Origin: Streptomyces sp. B3I8
Lineage (GTDB): Bacteria; Actinomycetota; Actinomycetes; Streptomycetales; Streptomycetaceae
DNA: 64,000 nucleotides
NCBI RefSeq assembly: GCF_030816915.1
Contig: NZ_JAUSYN010000002.1
Span: forward strand, 372,001-436,000
Reading direction: 5' to 3'
A program made the translations under genes and the position numbers. Below the pieces are notes generated by a model. It was not told the origin of the DNA. It ran no database searches and saw only the letters and a program-made list of their open reading frames with translations. Of this stretch, positions 56,778 through 62,764 are shown in pieces (the first letter of the stretch is position 1; each line of letters starts with the position of its first letter).

Positions 56778-58181
56778 GTGTTCGACTACGACATGATCGT
56801 CATCGGATCCGGCCCCGGCGGCCAGAAGGCCGCCATCGCCGCGGCCAAGCTCGGCCGCACGGTCGCCGTGATCGACCGCCCCGACCGGCTCGGCGGGGTC
56901 TCCCTGCACACCGGCACCATCCCCTCCAAGACCCTGCGCGAGGCCGTCCTCTACCTCACCGGTCTCACCCAGCGCGATCTGTACGGCCAGAGCTACCGGC
57001 TCAAGGAGAACATCACCGTCGCCGACCTGACCGCCCGCACCGAGCACGTCGTGGGCCGCGAGGTCGACGTCATCCGCAGCCAGTTGACCCGCAACCACGT
57101 CGCGCTGCTGAGCGGTACCGCCCGGTTCGAGGACGAGCACACCCTCGCCCTTCAGGAGCCGGACGGCGACGGGCGGACGCTCAGCGCCGAGCACATCGTC
57201 ATCGCCACCGGCACCCGCCCGGCCCGCCCGGCGAGCGTCGAGTTCGACGGGCGGACCATCCTGGACTCCGACAACGTGCTGCACCTGGAGCGGGTGCCGC
57301 GGTCCATGGTCATCGTCGGCGCGGGCGTCATCGGCATGGAGTACGCCTCCATGTTCGCCGCGCTCGGCAGCAAAATCACCGTCGTCGAACAGCGGCCGGG
57401 AATGCTCGACTTCTGCGACGCGGAGGTCGTGGAGTCGCTCAAGTACCACCTGCGGGACCTCGCGGTCACCTTCCGGTTCGGGGAGACGGTGAGCGCGGTC
57501 GAGCGGCACCCGGGCGGCACGCTCACGGTGCTGGCGAGCGGCAAGAAGATCCCCGCCGACGCGGTGATGTACTCCGCGGGCCGGCAGGGCCTGACCGACG
57601 AACTGGCCCTGGAGAAGGCGGGGCTGACCGCCGACAGGCGCGGCCGGATCACCGTCGACGAGCACTACCGCACCTCGGTCCCGCACATCTACGCCGTCGG
57701 GGACGTCATCGGATTTCCGGCGCTCGCGGCGACCTCCATGGAACAGGGCCGGGCGGCGGCGTACCACGCCTGCGGGGAGCCGGTGCATCCGATGCACGAC
57801 CTGCAGCCCATCGGCATCTACACCATCCCCGAGATCAGCTTCATCGGGCGCACCGAGGCCCGGCTGACCGAGGAATGCGTGCCGTTCGAGGTCGGGATGT
57901 CCCGCTACCGGGAGCTGGCCCGGGGGCAGATCATCGGCGACTCGCACGGCATGCTGAAGCTGCTCGTCTCCCCGCAGGACCGCAAGCTGCTCGGGGTGCA
58001 CTGCTTCGGCACCGGTGCGACCGAGCTCATCCACATCGGGCAGACCGTGATGGGCTGCGGCGGCACGGTGGACTATCTCGTCGACGCGGTGTTCAACTAC
58101 CCGACGCTCGCCGAGTCGTACAAGGTGGCCGCGCTGGACGCGACCAACCGGATCCGGCAGATCGACCGCCTGGAGGGCTGA
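56778..58181 (+). CDS. sthA: Soluble pyridine nucleotide transhydrogenase
   Basis: This flavoprotein exchanges hydride between NADPH and NAD+. It has 467 residues of the disulfide-reductase fold. FAD motif GSGPGG is at 10-15; the second nucleotide motif is [13 protein letters not shown]. The redox-Cys region reads [13 protein letters not shown], with Ser42 and Thr47 where reductases have two Cys, so no disulfide forms, consistent with a transhydrogenase. The C-terminal interface domain is complete. It starts at a GTG and is a single gene or heads the following pair after 88 bases. Confidence 0.92.
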
Positions 58182-58269
58182 GCGCCGAGCGCCCCGGCGA
58201 CGTATGGGAGGGTGCGGGCAGGGTGCCCGCACCCCGCCCGCCGTCCCGCCCGCCGGAGGTACCGCGTCC

Positions 58270-59292
58270 GTGACCACCCTCGACCCCACCGCCCCGCCCC
58301 GGTCCGGGCGGCGCGACGCGGAGGAACCGCCGCCGGACGCGCGGGGCCCGCGGCTCGACTCCTCGCTCGGCCTGGCCCTGCTGCTGTTGCCGGCGGTCGT
58401 GCTCCAGGGGCCGATCCGGCGGGCGCTGGGCGCGCCGGTGATGCAGAGCTGGATGACCGTGTTCGTGGCGGTGGTGGTCCAGGCCCTGCCCTTCCTCGTC
58501 CTCGGGGTGCTGCTGTCGGCCGCGCTCGCCGTGTTCGTCCCACCGTCGTTCTTCGCCCGCGCGCTGCCGTCCCGGCCGGCCCTCGCGGTGCCGGTGGCCG
58601 GGATGGCCGGGGCGGTGCTGCCCGGCTGCGAGTGTGCCTCCGTGCCGGTGGCCGGGGCGCTGGTACGGCGCGGGGTGGCGCCGTCGGCGGCGCTGGCGTT
58701 CCTGCTGTCGGCGCCCGCCATCAACCCGATCGTGCTGACCGCCACGGCCGTCGCCTTTCCCGGCCACCCGGAGATGGTGGCCGCGCGGTTCGGGGCGAGT
58801 CTGCTGGTGGCGTGCGCGATGGGCTGGCTGTGGCAGCGGCTGGGCCGCGCCGACTGGCTGCGCCTGCCCCACCCCCCGGCCGGTGGCCGGAGCAAGGGTG
58901 AGGCGTTCTGGGACTCGGTGCGGCACGACGTGATGCACGCCGGAGGTTTCCTGGTGCTGGGGGCGACGGCCGCCGCGACCCTGAAGTCGATGGTCCCGGC
59001 CGCGTGGCTGCGGGACGCGGCCGGCAACCCCGCGGTGGCGGTACTGGCGCTGGCCGCGCTGGCGGTGCTGCTGTCGATCTGCTCGGAGGCGGACGCCTTC
59101 GTGGCCTCCTCGCTGTCCCAGTTCTCGCTCACCGCGCGGCTGGTGTTCCTGGTCGTCGGGCCGATGATCGACCTGAAGCTGTTCGCCATGCAGGCGGGCA
59201 CGTTCGGCCGCGGGTTCGCACTGCGGTTCGCGCCGGCGACGCTCGTGCTGGCCGTGGTCGTGCCGACGGCGGTGGGGACGGTGATCTGGTGA
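58270..59292 (+). CDS. Permease of the DUF318/YraQ (YcgR-like) family
   Basis: This is a 340-residue membrane protein with about eight helices. The two-fold repeat carries 'GAVLPGCECASVPVAGALVR' and, later, 'LLSICSEADAFVASSL', where the cysteine-centred motifs CxCxSxP and CSEADA are hallmarks of the family. The first 35 residues are Pro/Arg-rich. GTG 58270 has GGAGG upstream. It overlaps the TIGR03943 gene by four bases. Such pairs often occur with metal-homeostasis genes; the transported species is unknown. Confidence 0.92.
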   Translation: MTTLDPTAPPRSGRRDAEEPPPDARGPRLDSSLGLALLLLPAVVLQGPIRRALGAPVMQSWMTVFVAVVVQALPFLVLGVLLSAALAVFVPPSFFARALPSRPALAVPVAGMAGAVLPGCECASVPVAGALVRRGVAPSAALAFLLSAPAINPIVLTATAVAFPGHPEMVAARFGASLLVACAMGWLWQRLGRADWLRLPHPPAGGRSKGEAFWDSVRHDVMHAGGFLVLGATAAATLKSMVPAAWLRDAAGNPAVAVLALAALAVLLSICSEADAFVASSLSQFSLTARLVFLVVGPMIDLKLFAMQAGTFGRGFALRFAPATLVLAVVVPTAVGTVIW

Positions 59293-60027
59293 ACCGGCAC
59301 GCGCAGGCGGTCGTCCTGTTCCTGACCGGCACGGCCCTGTTGCACGCCGGGCTGACCGATCTGTATCTGCGGTACGTCAAGGCCGGGCTGCGCCCGCTGC
59401 TGCTGGCGGCCGGTGCCGTCCTGATCGTCACCTCGGCGGCCACCGTCTGGTACGACCTGCGGCGGGCCCGGGCCGCCCGCCGGGGCCGCGCGGAGGAGCG
59501 GGGAGGCGGGGCACGTCCACCGCGAACCCCGGGTCTCCTGGCTGCTGGTGCTGCCGCTGCTCGCCCTGATCCTGGTCGCGCCGCCCGCCCTCGGCTCCTA
59601 CAGCGCGATGCGCACCGGTACGGCCCTGCAGGCCCCGTTCGGCTATGCTCCGCTGCCCGCCAAGAACCCGGTCCCGCTCGACCTGGTCGACTACGCGGGC
59701 CGGGCGGCGTACGGGCACGGGCGCACCCTGGGCGACCGGAAGGTCCGGATCACCGGATTCGTCGCGCTCGACGGCGCCGGACGGCCGTATCTCGTGCGGA
59801 TGGCGCTGAGTTGCTGCGCCGCCGACGCGCAGCCGGTGAAGGTCGGACTGAGCGGGCGGGTGCCTCCCGTGCTGCAGCCCGACAGTTGGCTGACTGTGGT
59901 CGGGACCTATACGCCGAGGCACATCGAGGACCCCGTGAACGGCCGGACCATCCCCTATCTCGACGTGAGCCTCGCCACAGTGGTGCCGGTACCGCACGAT
60001 CCGTACGACGAGAGCTGGAACACCTGA
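59289..60027 (+). pseudogene. TIGR03943 (YcgQ/DUF1980) protein, frameshifted at a G-run
   Basis: The gene starts at the GTG overlapping the permease stop and reads NRHAQAVVLFLTGTALLHAG with two membrane helices, as in the family. Near GGGG at 59508-59511 the frame shifts: the rest of the protein (HREPRVSWLLVLPLLALILV, then the soluble domain with 'LSCCAADAQPVKV' and 'PYLDVSLATVV') continues in the next frame to 60027. Deleting one G restores about 245 residues. It is either a true mutation, phase-variable run or sequence error. The normal partner is the DUF318 permease. Confidence 0.85.
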
Positions 60028-60278
60028 AAAGGCGTCTCCTCGACGTCCTTCCCACGTCCCGCCCCTGTTCCACGCGCGCTCCGGGGGCGCCTCGGGCGCC
60101 TCTGGGACCCCCCTGGGACGAGTCCCGCCCCAACTGCCCCAATGGTTACGGAGCGTGAGGCAACCATTCACTCGTTCGATTCGTATATCCACGTGGAAGC
60201 GGCGCGGGGCCCCCGGTCACGGGGGGCATCCGGAGCACCACCGACCGCTTCTCCGAGGTTCTCGAGCGAGGAGAAACG
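60028..60278 (+). promoter_or_regulatory. Upstream region of the graspetide genes
   Basis: This 251-base spacer has an AT-rich island (60138-60195) containing AATGGTT (60141-60147) answered by AACCATT (60162-60168), 14 bases apart, followed by 'TCGATTCGTATATCC' that could hold a -10 box. GAGGAG lies eight bases before the precursor ATG. The palindrome is the best operator candidate for this cluster. Confidence 0.5.
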
Positions 60279-60470
60279 ATGCAGTTGTTCGCCCTCAACT
60301 ATGCCGTCCCTGTGAAAGAGTTCGAGGTCAGCGCTCCGTACATCTACGACTCCGCACTGCAGTTGAACCTCTTGGCCAACGGCCGCATCGCAGCCCACGA
60401 CGCCGCGCTGATGCGCGAACTGGGCGCGACCACCTCGACGGCCGGGTCCAAGACCCACTTCGACGACTGA
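60279..60470 (+). CDS. ATP-grasp-modified RiPP (graspetide) precursor peptide
   Basis: This is a 63-residue precursor. Its leader starts MQLFALNYAVPV, matching the family's conserved 'FALxxAVP' element, and has a central PYIYDSALQLN segment. The core is the C-terminal TTSTAGSKTHFDD (51-63), in which five hydroxyl residues plus Lys58 can be linked to Asp62 and Asp63. This fits the putative ATP-grasp target family (TIGR04186 as I recall). GAGGAG precedes the ATG. It lies 15 bases ahead of the ligase gene. No Cys is present. Base composition is less GC-rich than in neighbours. Confidence 0.85.
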   Translation: MQLFALNYAVPVKEFEVSAPYIYDSALQLNLLANGRIAAHDAALMRELGATTSTAGSKTHFDD

Positions 60471-60485
60471 ACACGGGGCGCGACG

Positions 60486-61478
60486 ATGACGGTGCTGATC
60501 CTCACCGGCGAGGAGGACGTGACGGCGGATCTGGTGGTGGCCCAGCTCCACGCCCTGGGCGCCCCGGTGGTCCGGCTCGATCCCGCCGACCTGCCGGGAG
60601 CGGTGTCCCTCTCCGGCGAGTACGTGCACGGCGGCTTCCGCGGCCATCTCTCCGCCGGCGGCAGACTGGTGAGCATGGACGGGCTGAGATCCGTCTGGGT
60701 GCGCAGACCGGGCACGCCCGGTACCCGCGCCGGTTGGCCGTCCGACTGGCTGAGCGAGGAGTCCGGGCAAGCCCTGTACGGCATGCTGCGCAGCGCGGAC
60801 GTCCGCTGGATGAATCACCCGGACGCGGCCCGGCGCGCCCGGTACAAGCCCTGGCAGCTACGGCTGGCCCAGCGCGGCGGACTGCCGGTGCCGGCCACGC
60901 TGATCACGACGTTCCCGCAGGCCGCGCGTGACTTCGCCGCCCGCTACCCGGACCTGGTCGTCAAGCCGGTGTCGGGCACGCATCCGCAGCATCCGCCCCG
61001 CGCGGTGCCGACCAGCAGGGTCGCCCCGGGCACGGACTTCGCGGCGGTCGCCCACGGGCCGACGCTGCTGCAGCGCCGCGTACCCAAGCGTGCCGACATC
61101 CGACTGACCGCCGTCGGCGGCCGGTTGCTCGCCGCCCGCAAGGAGGTCCCCTCCGACGCCGACCCGGACGAGGTCGACGTCCGCTTCACCCGGACCGACA
61201 CGCCCTGGAATCCGGTGGACACACCGCCGAGGGTCGCCGGGGCCGTGCGCGCCTATCTGCGGGAGGCGGAACTGGCCTACGGGGCCTTCGACTTCGCCGA
61301 GGACACCGACGGTATCTGGTGGTTCCTGGAGTGCAACCAGTCGGGCCAGTTCGGCTTCGTCGAGGCGGAGACGGAGCAGCCGATCGCCCGCACGGTGGCC
61401 CGGTGGCTGGCCTGTCAGGAGGACGCCGAGCCGGACGCCGGGGGCGGCGGGTCCACCGCCCCCCGCGTCGCTCAGTGA
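60486..61478 (+). CDS. ATP-grasp RiPP maturase (SAV_5884-type, graspetide ligase)
   Basis: This 330-residue ligase would activate Asp/Glu side chains of the precursor with ATP and join them to Ser/Thr/Lys, making macrolactones or macrolactams. The N-terminal part contains 'VWVRRPGTPG'. The ATP-grasp region has the ATP-binding Lys in DLVVKPVSGTH, the 'LLQRRVPKRADIRLTAVGG' strand and the metal-binding ECNQSGQF motif near residue 285, as in MvdD/TgnB-type enzymes. It ends with a disordered Gly/Ala tail that overlaps the convergent livK stop by seven bases. No methyltransferase or transporter follows. Confidence 0.88.
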   Translation: MTVLILTGEEDVTADLVVAQLHALGAPVVRLDPADLPGAVSLSGEYVHGGFRGHLSAGGRLVSMDGLRSVWVRRPGTPGTRAGWPSDWLSEESGQALYGMLRSADVRWMNHPDAARRARYKPWQLRLAQRGGLPVPATLITTFPQAARDFAARYPDLVVKPVSGTHPQHPPRAVPTSRVAPGTDFAAVAHGPTLLQRRVPKRADIRLTAVGGRLLAARKEVPSDADPDEVDVRFTRTDTPWNPVDTPPRVAGAVRAYLREAELAYGAFDFAEDTDGIWWFLECNQSGQFGFVEAETEQPIARTVARWLACQEDAEPDAGGGGSTAPRVAQ

Positions 61479-62764
61479 CGGGAGGCCAGATACGCCCGCA
61501 CGTCCGGTGCCTCGTGCGCGTCCTCCTCGTTCACCAGACCGCCCACCGCGTTCGGGTCCGGCTTGAGCACATACGTCTTCAGGCTCGCCGGTAGCGCCTT
61601 GTCCGAGAAGTCCTGCGGCGTGCCGAGCCCGGTGTCGAGGTTCTTCTGCGTGCGGTGTGCCGCGACCACGTCCGCCCGGTCCAGGCTGCCCTTCCGGCAT
61701 GCCTTCTTCAGGTCCGCGCCCATGAGCTGGGCCGCGTTGTACCCGGAGAGCACGCCCGAGTCGACGACGGCACCCGGGTACTTCTTCCCGTACGCCGCGA
61801 CCATGCGCTTCACCCCCGGGATGTCGGCGCTGACCGCGGGGGCCGCGCCGACCACGTGCAGCATCCCTTCGAGCGCCTTCGCGGCGGGGGTCTTGAGGAG
61901 TTGGGGCGCGAAGCCGGGGGCACTGCTGACGATCGGCACCTTCAGGCCGCGGGCGGCGGCGACCCCCGCGAGGGAGGCGGTCTGGGCGGGGCCCGCGCTG
62001 ATCAGCAGGGCCTTGACACCCTCCTTGCGCAGGGCGGTGACCTGGGCGGACAGATCGGTGTCGGTGGCCTTGACCTTCTGCCCGACCACCTTCATGCCGG
62101 CCCGCTCCGCCGCCCAGGTGGAGCCCTCCAGGGCGTTGGCGCCGTAGTCGCCCTCGAAGTAGACGTGACCGAGGGTGTCGCCCTTGCCGAGCTTCTTCGC
62201 GCGGGTGAGGTAGTCGACGGCGGCGAGCATGTCGACGTCGTAGGTGGTGCCCACGACCTGCACGGCGTCCTTGCCGAGCAGGGCGGCGGACCAGGCCTGC
62301 GGGAAGGTGAGCATGTGGTCGCGCTGGAGGTCGTCGAGGAGGGCGGCGACCACCGGTGAGCCGACCACCTGCGGCAGCGCCACCACGTTCGTGGAGAGAT
62401 CGGCGTAGGCGCTGACGGCCTTCTGCACGTCGTAGCCGTGGTCCTTGACGGTGATGCGGATGTCTCGGCCGCAGATCCCGCCGTCGGCGTTGGTCTCGTC
62501 GGCCCACAACTGCTGGGCCTGCACGATGCTCTTGCCGAGCGTGGCGTAGGGGCCGGACAGGTCGGTCAAGGCGCCGAGCCGGATGACACCGTCGCTGACG
62601 CCGGGTCCGGTGCGGACGCCGTCGGCGCCGTCGGCGCCCGGGGAACCTTCCGACTTGGAGCTGCACGCGGCGCCGGCCAGCAGGACGGCCGTCAGGGCGG
62701 CGGCGAGGACGGGACGGCGGACGCGGCGGGCGTGCGGCGGGCGCCGGGTGGACGGGACGTTCAC
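61472..62764 (-). CDS. livK: Branched-chain amino acid ABC transporter, substrate-binding lipoprotein
   Basis: This is a 430-residue periplasm-side binding protein of the LivK/HAAT family. The signal peptide ends in LAGAAC with Cys34 for lipid attachment. The ligand-binding domain opens 'IRLGALTDLSGPYATLGK' and contains 'GVLSGYNAAQLM'. It starts at a GTG that overlaps the LivM stop (GTGA), so it is translated with the permeases. The true ligand could be branched-chain amino acids, amides or urea-like compounds. Confidence 0.92.
   Translation of the reverse strand: MNVPSTRRPPHARRVRRPVLAAALTAVLLAGAACSSKSEGSPGADGADGVRTGPGVSDGVIRLGALTDLSGPYATLGKSIVQAQQLWADETNADGGICGRDIRITVKDHGYDVQKAVSAYADLSTNVVALPQVVGSPVVAALLDDLQRDHMLTFPQAWSAALLGKDAVQVVGTTYDVDMLAAVDYLTRAKKLGKGDTLGHVYFEGDYGANALEGSTWAAERAGMKVVGQKVKATDTDLSAQVTALRKEGVKALLISAGPAQTASLAGVAAARGLKVPIVSSAPGFAPQLLKTPAAKALEGMLHVVGAAPAVSADIPGVKRMVAAYGKKYPGAVVDSGVLSGYNAAQLMGADLKKACRKGSLDRADVVAAHRTQKNLDTGLGTPQDFSDKALPASLKTYVLKPDPNAVGGLVNEEDAHEAPDVRAYLASRH

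Follow-up and report, generated by a model that had tools for sequence, protein, structure and literature searches.

The question raised by this locus is whether a short reading frame followed directly by an ATP-grasp ligase gene, with no methyltransferase gene beside it, represents an unusual peptide pathway in Streptomyces sp. B3I8, and which of its features are worth pursuing. The window considered here is the whole stretch of 64,000 nucleotides that was analyzed, and all positions refer to it unless another locus is named. A sequence-only reading had described a two-gene graspetide (ATP-grasp RiPP) cluster near the end of the window and had treated the missing methyltransferase as its distinguishing point.

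A precursor and ligase cassette and its known relatives

The two-gene graspetide locus was confirmed in its coordinates, core, 15-base gap, and gene order. The precursor reading frame (60279-60470, + strand) encodes 63 amino acids and has TTSTAGSKTHFDD as its C-terminal end, and a putative ribosome-binding site, GGAG, can be read directly from the sequence at 60270..60273 (+ strand). Beyond the gap after the precursor stop codon, an ATG at 60486 opens the ligase gene (60486-61478, + strand; 330 amino acids), the end of which overlaps by 7 bases with a convergent gene (61472-62764, − strand) encoding a periplasmic binding protein (PF13458). The genome of strain B3I8 itself contains one TIGR04187 ligase and one PF14404 match. 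Among relatives, precursor and ligase co-occur in all 80 loci that were chosen by the ligase alone (the best 80 of 431 relatives), and this joint recurrence shows that the pairing exceeds chance.

The precursor matches PF14404 (Strep_pep) with 112.8 bits (cut-off 25) over positions 1-63, and PMC8939145 counts this family among the precursor families first described in 2009. With this full-length match, there is no material difference between the window and the Pfam Strep_pep or NCBI tgmA-tgmB entries, and homologues are named ATP-grasp-modified RiPP or ATP-grasp target RiPP at NCBI and JGI. The profile search that had been suggested succeeded for the ligase, which is over the TIGR04187 cut-off, but fell just short for the precursor, which reaches 23.8 bits against TIGR04186 (cut-off 25, a shortfall of 1.2 bits). 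The leader is assigned to precursor residues 1-50 (60279..60428, + strand) from the PF14404 match and column counts, with a predicted boundary to the core, and Q28, L29, N30, and G35 are invariant among 75 homologues of 63 residues from a protein search. Far from being unconserved, a concern raised in the earlier reading, the precursor frame is strongly conserved among relatives.

The ligase is identified as a graspetide ligase, a tgmB/PruB-type ATP-grasp enzyme, with a score of 381.3 bits against TIGR04187 (cut-off 350); its scores against MvdC (127 bits) and MvdD (98 bits) are each far under their own cut-offs. A different identity was also weighed, namely that the enzyme is of the RimK/glutathione type and acts on a small molecule, the short reading frame being spurious. 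The similarity to the RimK family that would favor this is weak (33 bits, cut-off 143), and glutathione synthase gives 16.7 bits (cut-off 299), against which stand the TIGR04187 score and the short frame itself, which is found in 80/80 ligase-selected loci and is among the most conserved coding sequences there. We give this identity a negligible chance of being correct, and on profile scores the enzyme belongs to the MvdC/MvdD/TIGR04187 kind to which it had been assigned.

Six residues of the ligase (K121, K160, D204, R206, E282, and N284) do not vary across 23 aligned ligases, and we take K121, K160, E282, and N284 to be ATP/Mg residues of graspetide synthetases. D204 and R206 form the DxR motif, which reads DIR in the window ligase and DFR in PMC13097080, where it is described as important in graspetide synthetases. 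Over 309 residues, the window ligase is 77% identical to PDB chain 9bou_A, a crystallized MvdD-like pre-ATP grasp domain-containing protein from another strain, and 9bou is in turn 99.4% identical to the ligase of a sampled locus (L048) with the window's core in its precursor; a full-text search for the entry code found no paper naming 9bou. MvdC/MvdD, MdnC, and PsnB share the ATP-grasp macrocyclase fold family with the window ligase, but the microviridin-type systems differ from the window in their scores (127 and 98 bits, and at most 95 bits in a PDB search), their multi-gene clusters, and their cores. Among the PDB entries, 5ig8/5ig9 are presumably MdnC and 7drm is presumably PsnB.

Prunipeptin is, according to a title cited in PMC13097080, a bicyclic peptide from a cryptic cluster of S. 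prunicolor. There are three TIGR04187 ligases in the genome of S. prunicolor NBRC 13075, and a single PF14404 precursor; two of the ligases adjoin homologues of the methyltransferase query, at 46% and 50% identity, and the third (L102) follows the PF14404 precursor, which has the same 13-residue core, with one histidine in it. In the work of Unno and Kodani from 2021, prunipeptin reportedly came from just two genes, pruA and pruB, and contained an ester and an isopeptide bond, one of each; the same study is said to include a variant, 15HW. We take L102 to be the prunipeptin locus and its precursor to be PruA, and since L102 is the sole two-gene candidate in S. prunicolor, the window cassette is regarded as a pruAB orthologue. 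On this assignment, prunipeptin (pruA/pruB, BGC0002725) shares with the window the two-gene layout and the same 13 C-terminal residues, and the two ligases are 78% identical; the leaders differ, and at residue 50 the window has A where S. prunicolor has T. It is highly probable that the window locus is a prunipeptin-type graspetide cassette, and the cassette, which had been correctly read from the sequence, belongs to a kind that is well established and abundant.

Of 295 Streptomyces genomes sampled, 161 had a PF14404 match over cut-off. An order-level sample gave 97 of 197 genomes over cut-off, all of them Streptomyces (a match in one of six genera, the 197 genomes being counted across the order as a whole), and PMC11888242 reports 3,589 clusters for the prunipeptin family (BGC0002725), 99.5% of them in Streptomyces, across six genera. 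One Strep_pep homologue (P0071) is filed under Stenotrophomonas sp. NPDC087984, and this record is probably a mislabelled Streptomyces.

The flanking transporter, which had been set apart from the cassette, is indeed not part of a conserved neighborhood. The binding protein recurs in the DNA around the cassette in 9/80 loci, the ABC permease and the oxidoreductase in 8/80 each, and the upstream permease with its DUF1980 protein in 3/80, with several of these matches lying kilobases away from the cassette. Conserved neighbors as partners (a protease or an exporter) were therefore rejected, since the window flanks recur in few of the 80 loci. The flanking genes of the window adjoin the cassette also in its two nearest relatives (L068 and L069), and the permease and DUF1980 pair is found near the cassette in L069. 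In the window, this pair lies directly upstream (58204-60027, + strand) and consists of a permease related to the Cu/Zn efflux family SO_0444/SaoE (below cut-off) and then a DUF1980 C-terminal domain protein. The gene at 56778-58181 (+ strand) encodes a Si-specific NAD(P)(+) transhydrogenase, which scores 680 bits against a cut-off of 465.

The methyltransferase and the two ligase clades

No methyltransferase is linked to the window cassette, the downstream neighbor being the convergent binding-protein gene, and to this extent the sequence-only reading was right. However, the absence is not unusual, as the lack of a linked methyltransferase is the norm of the window's clade (79/80 loci). A tgmC query gave a single match in the best 80 of 431 ligase relatives (L136, 36% identical, ~8 kb from the ligase), with flanks that reached 5 kb or more on the upstream side in 73 loci and on the downstream side in 76, and ~9 kb or more in both directions in 62. 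The same query matched 29 of the 30 loci (L008-L037) of the top-scoring TIGR04187 ligases and was therefore sensitive enough. The window ligase shares 33-36% identity with these 30 enzymes, whose precursors end quite differently. In a tree, the window ligase stands apart from the methyltransferase-linked ligases with full support; 3 of those 30 ligases are in the tree, which left out 28 of 95 attempted loci (27 of them from the methyltransferase clade), so that the clade comparison rests mainly on the identities. Because the methyltransferase split follows the ligase clades, the contrast drawn earlier is one between two clades and is not peculiar to the window locus.

The same comparisons bear on the possibility that the window holds a group 13 graspetide (graspimiditide) cassette from which the methyltransferase has been lost or in which it is encoded elsewhere. 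Fuscimiditide and the graspimiditides share the TIGR04187 ligase subfamily and the precursor-ligase order with the window, and the B3I8 genome has two PIMT-like genes, both on contig C2: one at ~2.38 Mb (L231 4548-5603, − strand; 275 bits against TIGR04188) and one at ~5.98 Mb (L232 7908-9536, − strand; 180 bits). Both are, however, below the TIGR04188 cut-off of 380 and megabases away, and the genome is without a second TIGR04187 ligase. Group 13 systems also differ from the window in having a PIMT-like methyltransferase, different cores, and ligases that are ~35% identical, and both the low identity to the mostly methyltransferase-linked set of 30 and the fully supported separation in the tree, for the three of that set it includes, argue against a group 13 origin. 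Moreover, the window core has no internal Asp for an aspartimide apart from the terminal DD. A group 13 cassette is therefore very unlikely. Since the genome has one TIGR04187 ligase, there is none beside either PIMT-like gene, and these two genes may belong to other peptide pathways, e.g., pamtides or lanthipeptides.

With PF14404 and TIGR04187 both over cut-off, the earlier prediction of an ester- or amide-linked graspetide made without a methyltransferase holds as predicted chemistry. This kind of cassette has already been described, and its two-gene, methyltransferase-free layout is not novel.

Constraint on the core and exchange of possible ring donors

What is new in the peptide itself is that the 13-residue core stays fixed as the leader drifts, and that diverged members of the family swap possible ring donors. 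The core (residues 51-63; 60429..60467, + strand) is identical in all 80 ligase-selected loci (the best 80 of 431). Across 78 distinct coding sequences, each of positions 51-63 holds one amino acid with a mean of 2.8 codons, while leader positions 2-49 average 6.2 codons for 3.4 amino acids. In these 78 sequences, which are ligase neighbors extracted via the core sequence already found in all 80 loci, core and leader are alike in pairwise pS (0.415 and 0.416) but differ in pN (0.002 and 0.148). A protein search favors shared core words, and the ligase-selected loci were therefore taken as the main evidence of invariance; the protein search returned one metagenomic sequence ending in DV and one with S at position 56.

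Since only the best 80 of 431 relatives had been kept, second copies of PF14404 were used to look separately for more distant cores, and core variants do appear there. Among 118 distinct precursors (157 loci), residues 52/54/58 are T/T/K in 77, T/T/Q in 16, A/T/K in 10, T/T/A in 10, T/K/A in 4, and T/K/Q in 1, and T51, S53, A55, G56, S57, T59, H60, D62, and D63 are constant. Position 54 is always T or K, T52 can be replaced by A, and K58 can be replaced by Q or A. The list of ring donors proposed earlier (T51, T52, S53, T54, S57, K58, and T59) thus stands for T51, S53, S57, and T59, which are constant, and for position 54 as T or K, but not for the replaceable T52 and K58. Both proposed acceptors, D62 and D63, are constant, and the C-terminal carboxylate is to be added as a further possible acceptor; a C-terminal carboxylate has been proposed in an ester of the Streptomyces graspetide SsfA (PMC10787088).

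K58 is the sole lysine of the core, and as it is Q or A in 31 of the 118 distinct precursors, an amide ring cannot be a feature of the whole family. An essential donor role for K58 was consequently rejected family-wide, although it is invariant in the window's clade. None of the 118 precursors has lost both T52 and K58 (10 have A52 and 31 are without K58; ~2.6 would be expected if the losses were independent, and the rows are related), which is at most suggestive of a rule by which either T52 or K58 is kept. In the tree, the A52 and K58 set (L162, L164, and L165) nests among rows with T52 and Q58 or A58, and this fits an exchange of donors, but the events are few. A distant cassette found through its ligase lies on a plasmid of Streptomyces sp. 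NBC_01240 (L149 3798-5340), where a third small gene overlaps the ligase end; its core, TTSTAGSATHNDDD, has F61 replaced by N and an extra D, and its ligase is 49-50% identical to that of the window.

The enzymatic logic of the family, ring closure by an ATP-grasp enzyme, is treated as established in PMC13097080. For the window product, we infer the chemistry and ring number, as well as the regulators and role discussed below, as follows. The leader of the 63-residue precursor (tgmA/PruA) would be recognized by the single ATP-grasp ligase (tgmB/PruB), which would phosphorylate the side-chain carboxylates of D62 and D63 and possibly also the C-terminal carboxylate. Hydroxyl and amine side chains of the core would attack the activated carboxylates, giving about two rings, with ester links and, where K58 serves, an amide link. 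No aspartimide step would come afterwards, and leader removal and export would be carried out by enzymes encoded outside the cassette.

The upstream element and the possible role of the peptide

Also new is a private upstream element that, where found, always stands before this precursor. An upstream alignment of 81 loci contains a common block that, in the window, ends ~90 bases short of the start codon. Within it are a putative BldD-box-like pseudo-palindrome, TTACGGAGCGTGA (60146..60158, + strand), which has 0 mismatches in the window to TNAC-N5-GTNA, the BldD box as defined in PMC4151990, and an adjoining promoter-like element of the ECF sigma type, GGCAACC-N16-CGTATA (60159..60187, + strand), read from the alignment, with a candidate −35 at 60159-60165 and a candidate −10 at 60182-60187. 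At the aligned place, the BldD-like box has at most one mismatch of its six fixed letters in 72/81 loci and two to four in the other 9. The composite of box and promoter-like part has 0-1 mismatch in 72/81 loci, and 0/243 dinucleotide shuffles came under 3 mismatches; since the composite was set after viewing the alignment, this match shows the presence of the element and not the identity of the factor.

The element core (GGMAACC-N16-CGTATA, at most one mismatch) was found in 49 of 150 genomes, with one match each, and all 49 matches are on the same strand and 31-101 bases before the PF14404 match, mostly at ~32 or 90. A reversed control of the element gave no match in the genomes listed from this 150-genome scan. 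PF14404 is over cut-off in 76 of the 150 genomes, and 27 have the precursor but not this version of the element; the B3I8 genome has a single element match at up to 3 mismatches. Second precursor copies (L156-L195; K58Q/A and T52A types) occur in several genomes with conserved upstream blocks of their own, that of the Q58 set being GTGATGAATTCCTTACG and then ACGTA.

Other readings of the block were also considered. An RNA element was rejected, as Rfam gave no match at 59900-61700, and the distance of 31-101 bases to the start codon is more in keeping with a promoter than with a leader RNA. GlnR- and PhoP-type readings were dropped after by-eye comparison with their consensus sequences. The element resembles an ECF sigma promoter beside a BldD box, and regulation through both may be proposed from this likeness. 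The chances are about even, however, that the element is instead a simple housekeeping promoter or another operator that is not under ECF/BldD control. This would suit the 9/81 loci with no good BldD-like box at the aligned place, the T52A subfamily, where the composite is no better than shuffles in 10/10, the K58Q/A subfamilies, where it is mostly at 3 or more mismatches, and the post hoc definition of the composite. In favor of ECF/BldD control are the conservation of the composite in 72/81 loci versus the shuffles, the AAC-N17-CGT spacing, which equals that of the sigmaE-type promoters given in PMC6767563, and the separate T54K/K58A subfamily, whose 4 loci keep the same layout with 0, 0, 1, and 2 mismatches. 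Among the papers listed by literature searches that combined graspetides with BldD, with ECF sigma factors, or with PF14404, none treats the regulation of the prunipeptin-type family.

The near-absolute purifying selection on the core, together with a promoter-like element of its own, points to one fixed target or role, and judging from these sequence patterns, the product probably has such a fixed target or role in Streptomyces. Since the core does not drift, a dedicated single-target role is favored over that of a variable antimicrobial. An ECF promoter next to a BldD box would give developmental, c-di-GMP-gated expression. In a fuller picture, which we consider improbable as a whole, the invariant cross-linked peptide would be a genus-specific developmental factor: (i) a BldD operator would overlap its private ECF promoter, letting c-di-GMP-loaded BldD silence it vegetatively and an ECF sigma factor switch it on; (ii) the core would act on one conserved target; (iii) the cassette would move between genomic contexts; and (iv) diverged paralogues would keep the layout and exchange donors (an amide via K58 for an ester via T52 or T/K54).

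Taken by itself, the locus is one more copy of a widespread family, and what would matter is that an invariant core goes together with a private promoter. Ribosomal peptide weapons mostly vary, and a core that is fixed across the species examined is what would be expected of a signal, a cofactor-like molecule, or a housekeeping inhibitor. Three features deserve further attention, namely the invariance of the core, the donor swaps, and the private element. The natural donor swaps provide a ready set of variants for finding the ring-closing residues, and the role of the prunipeptin family in Streptomyces, including whether BldD and an ECF sigma factor switch it, becomes a testable question.
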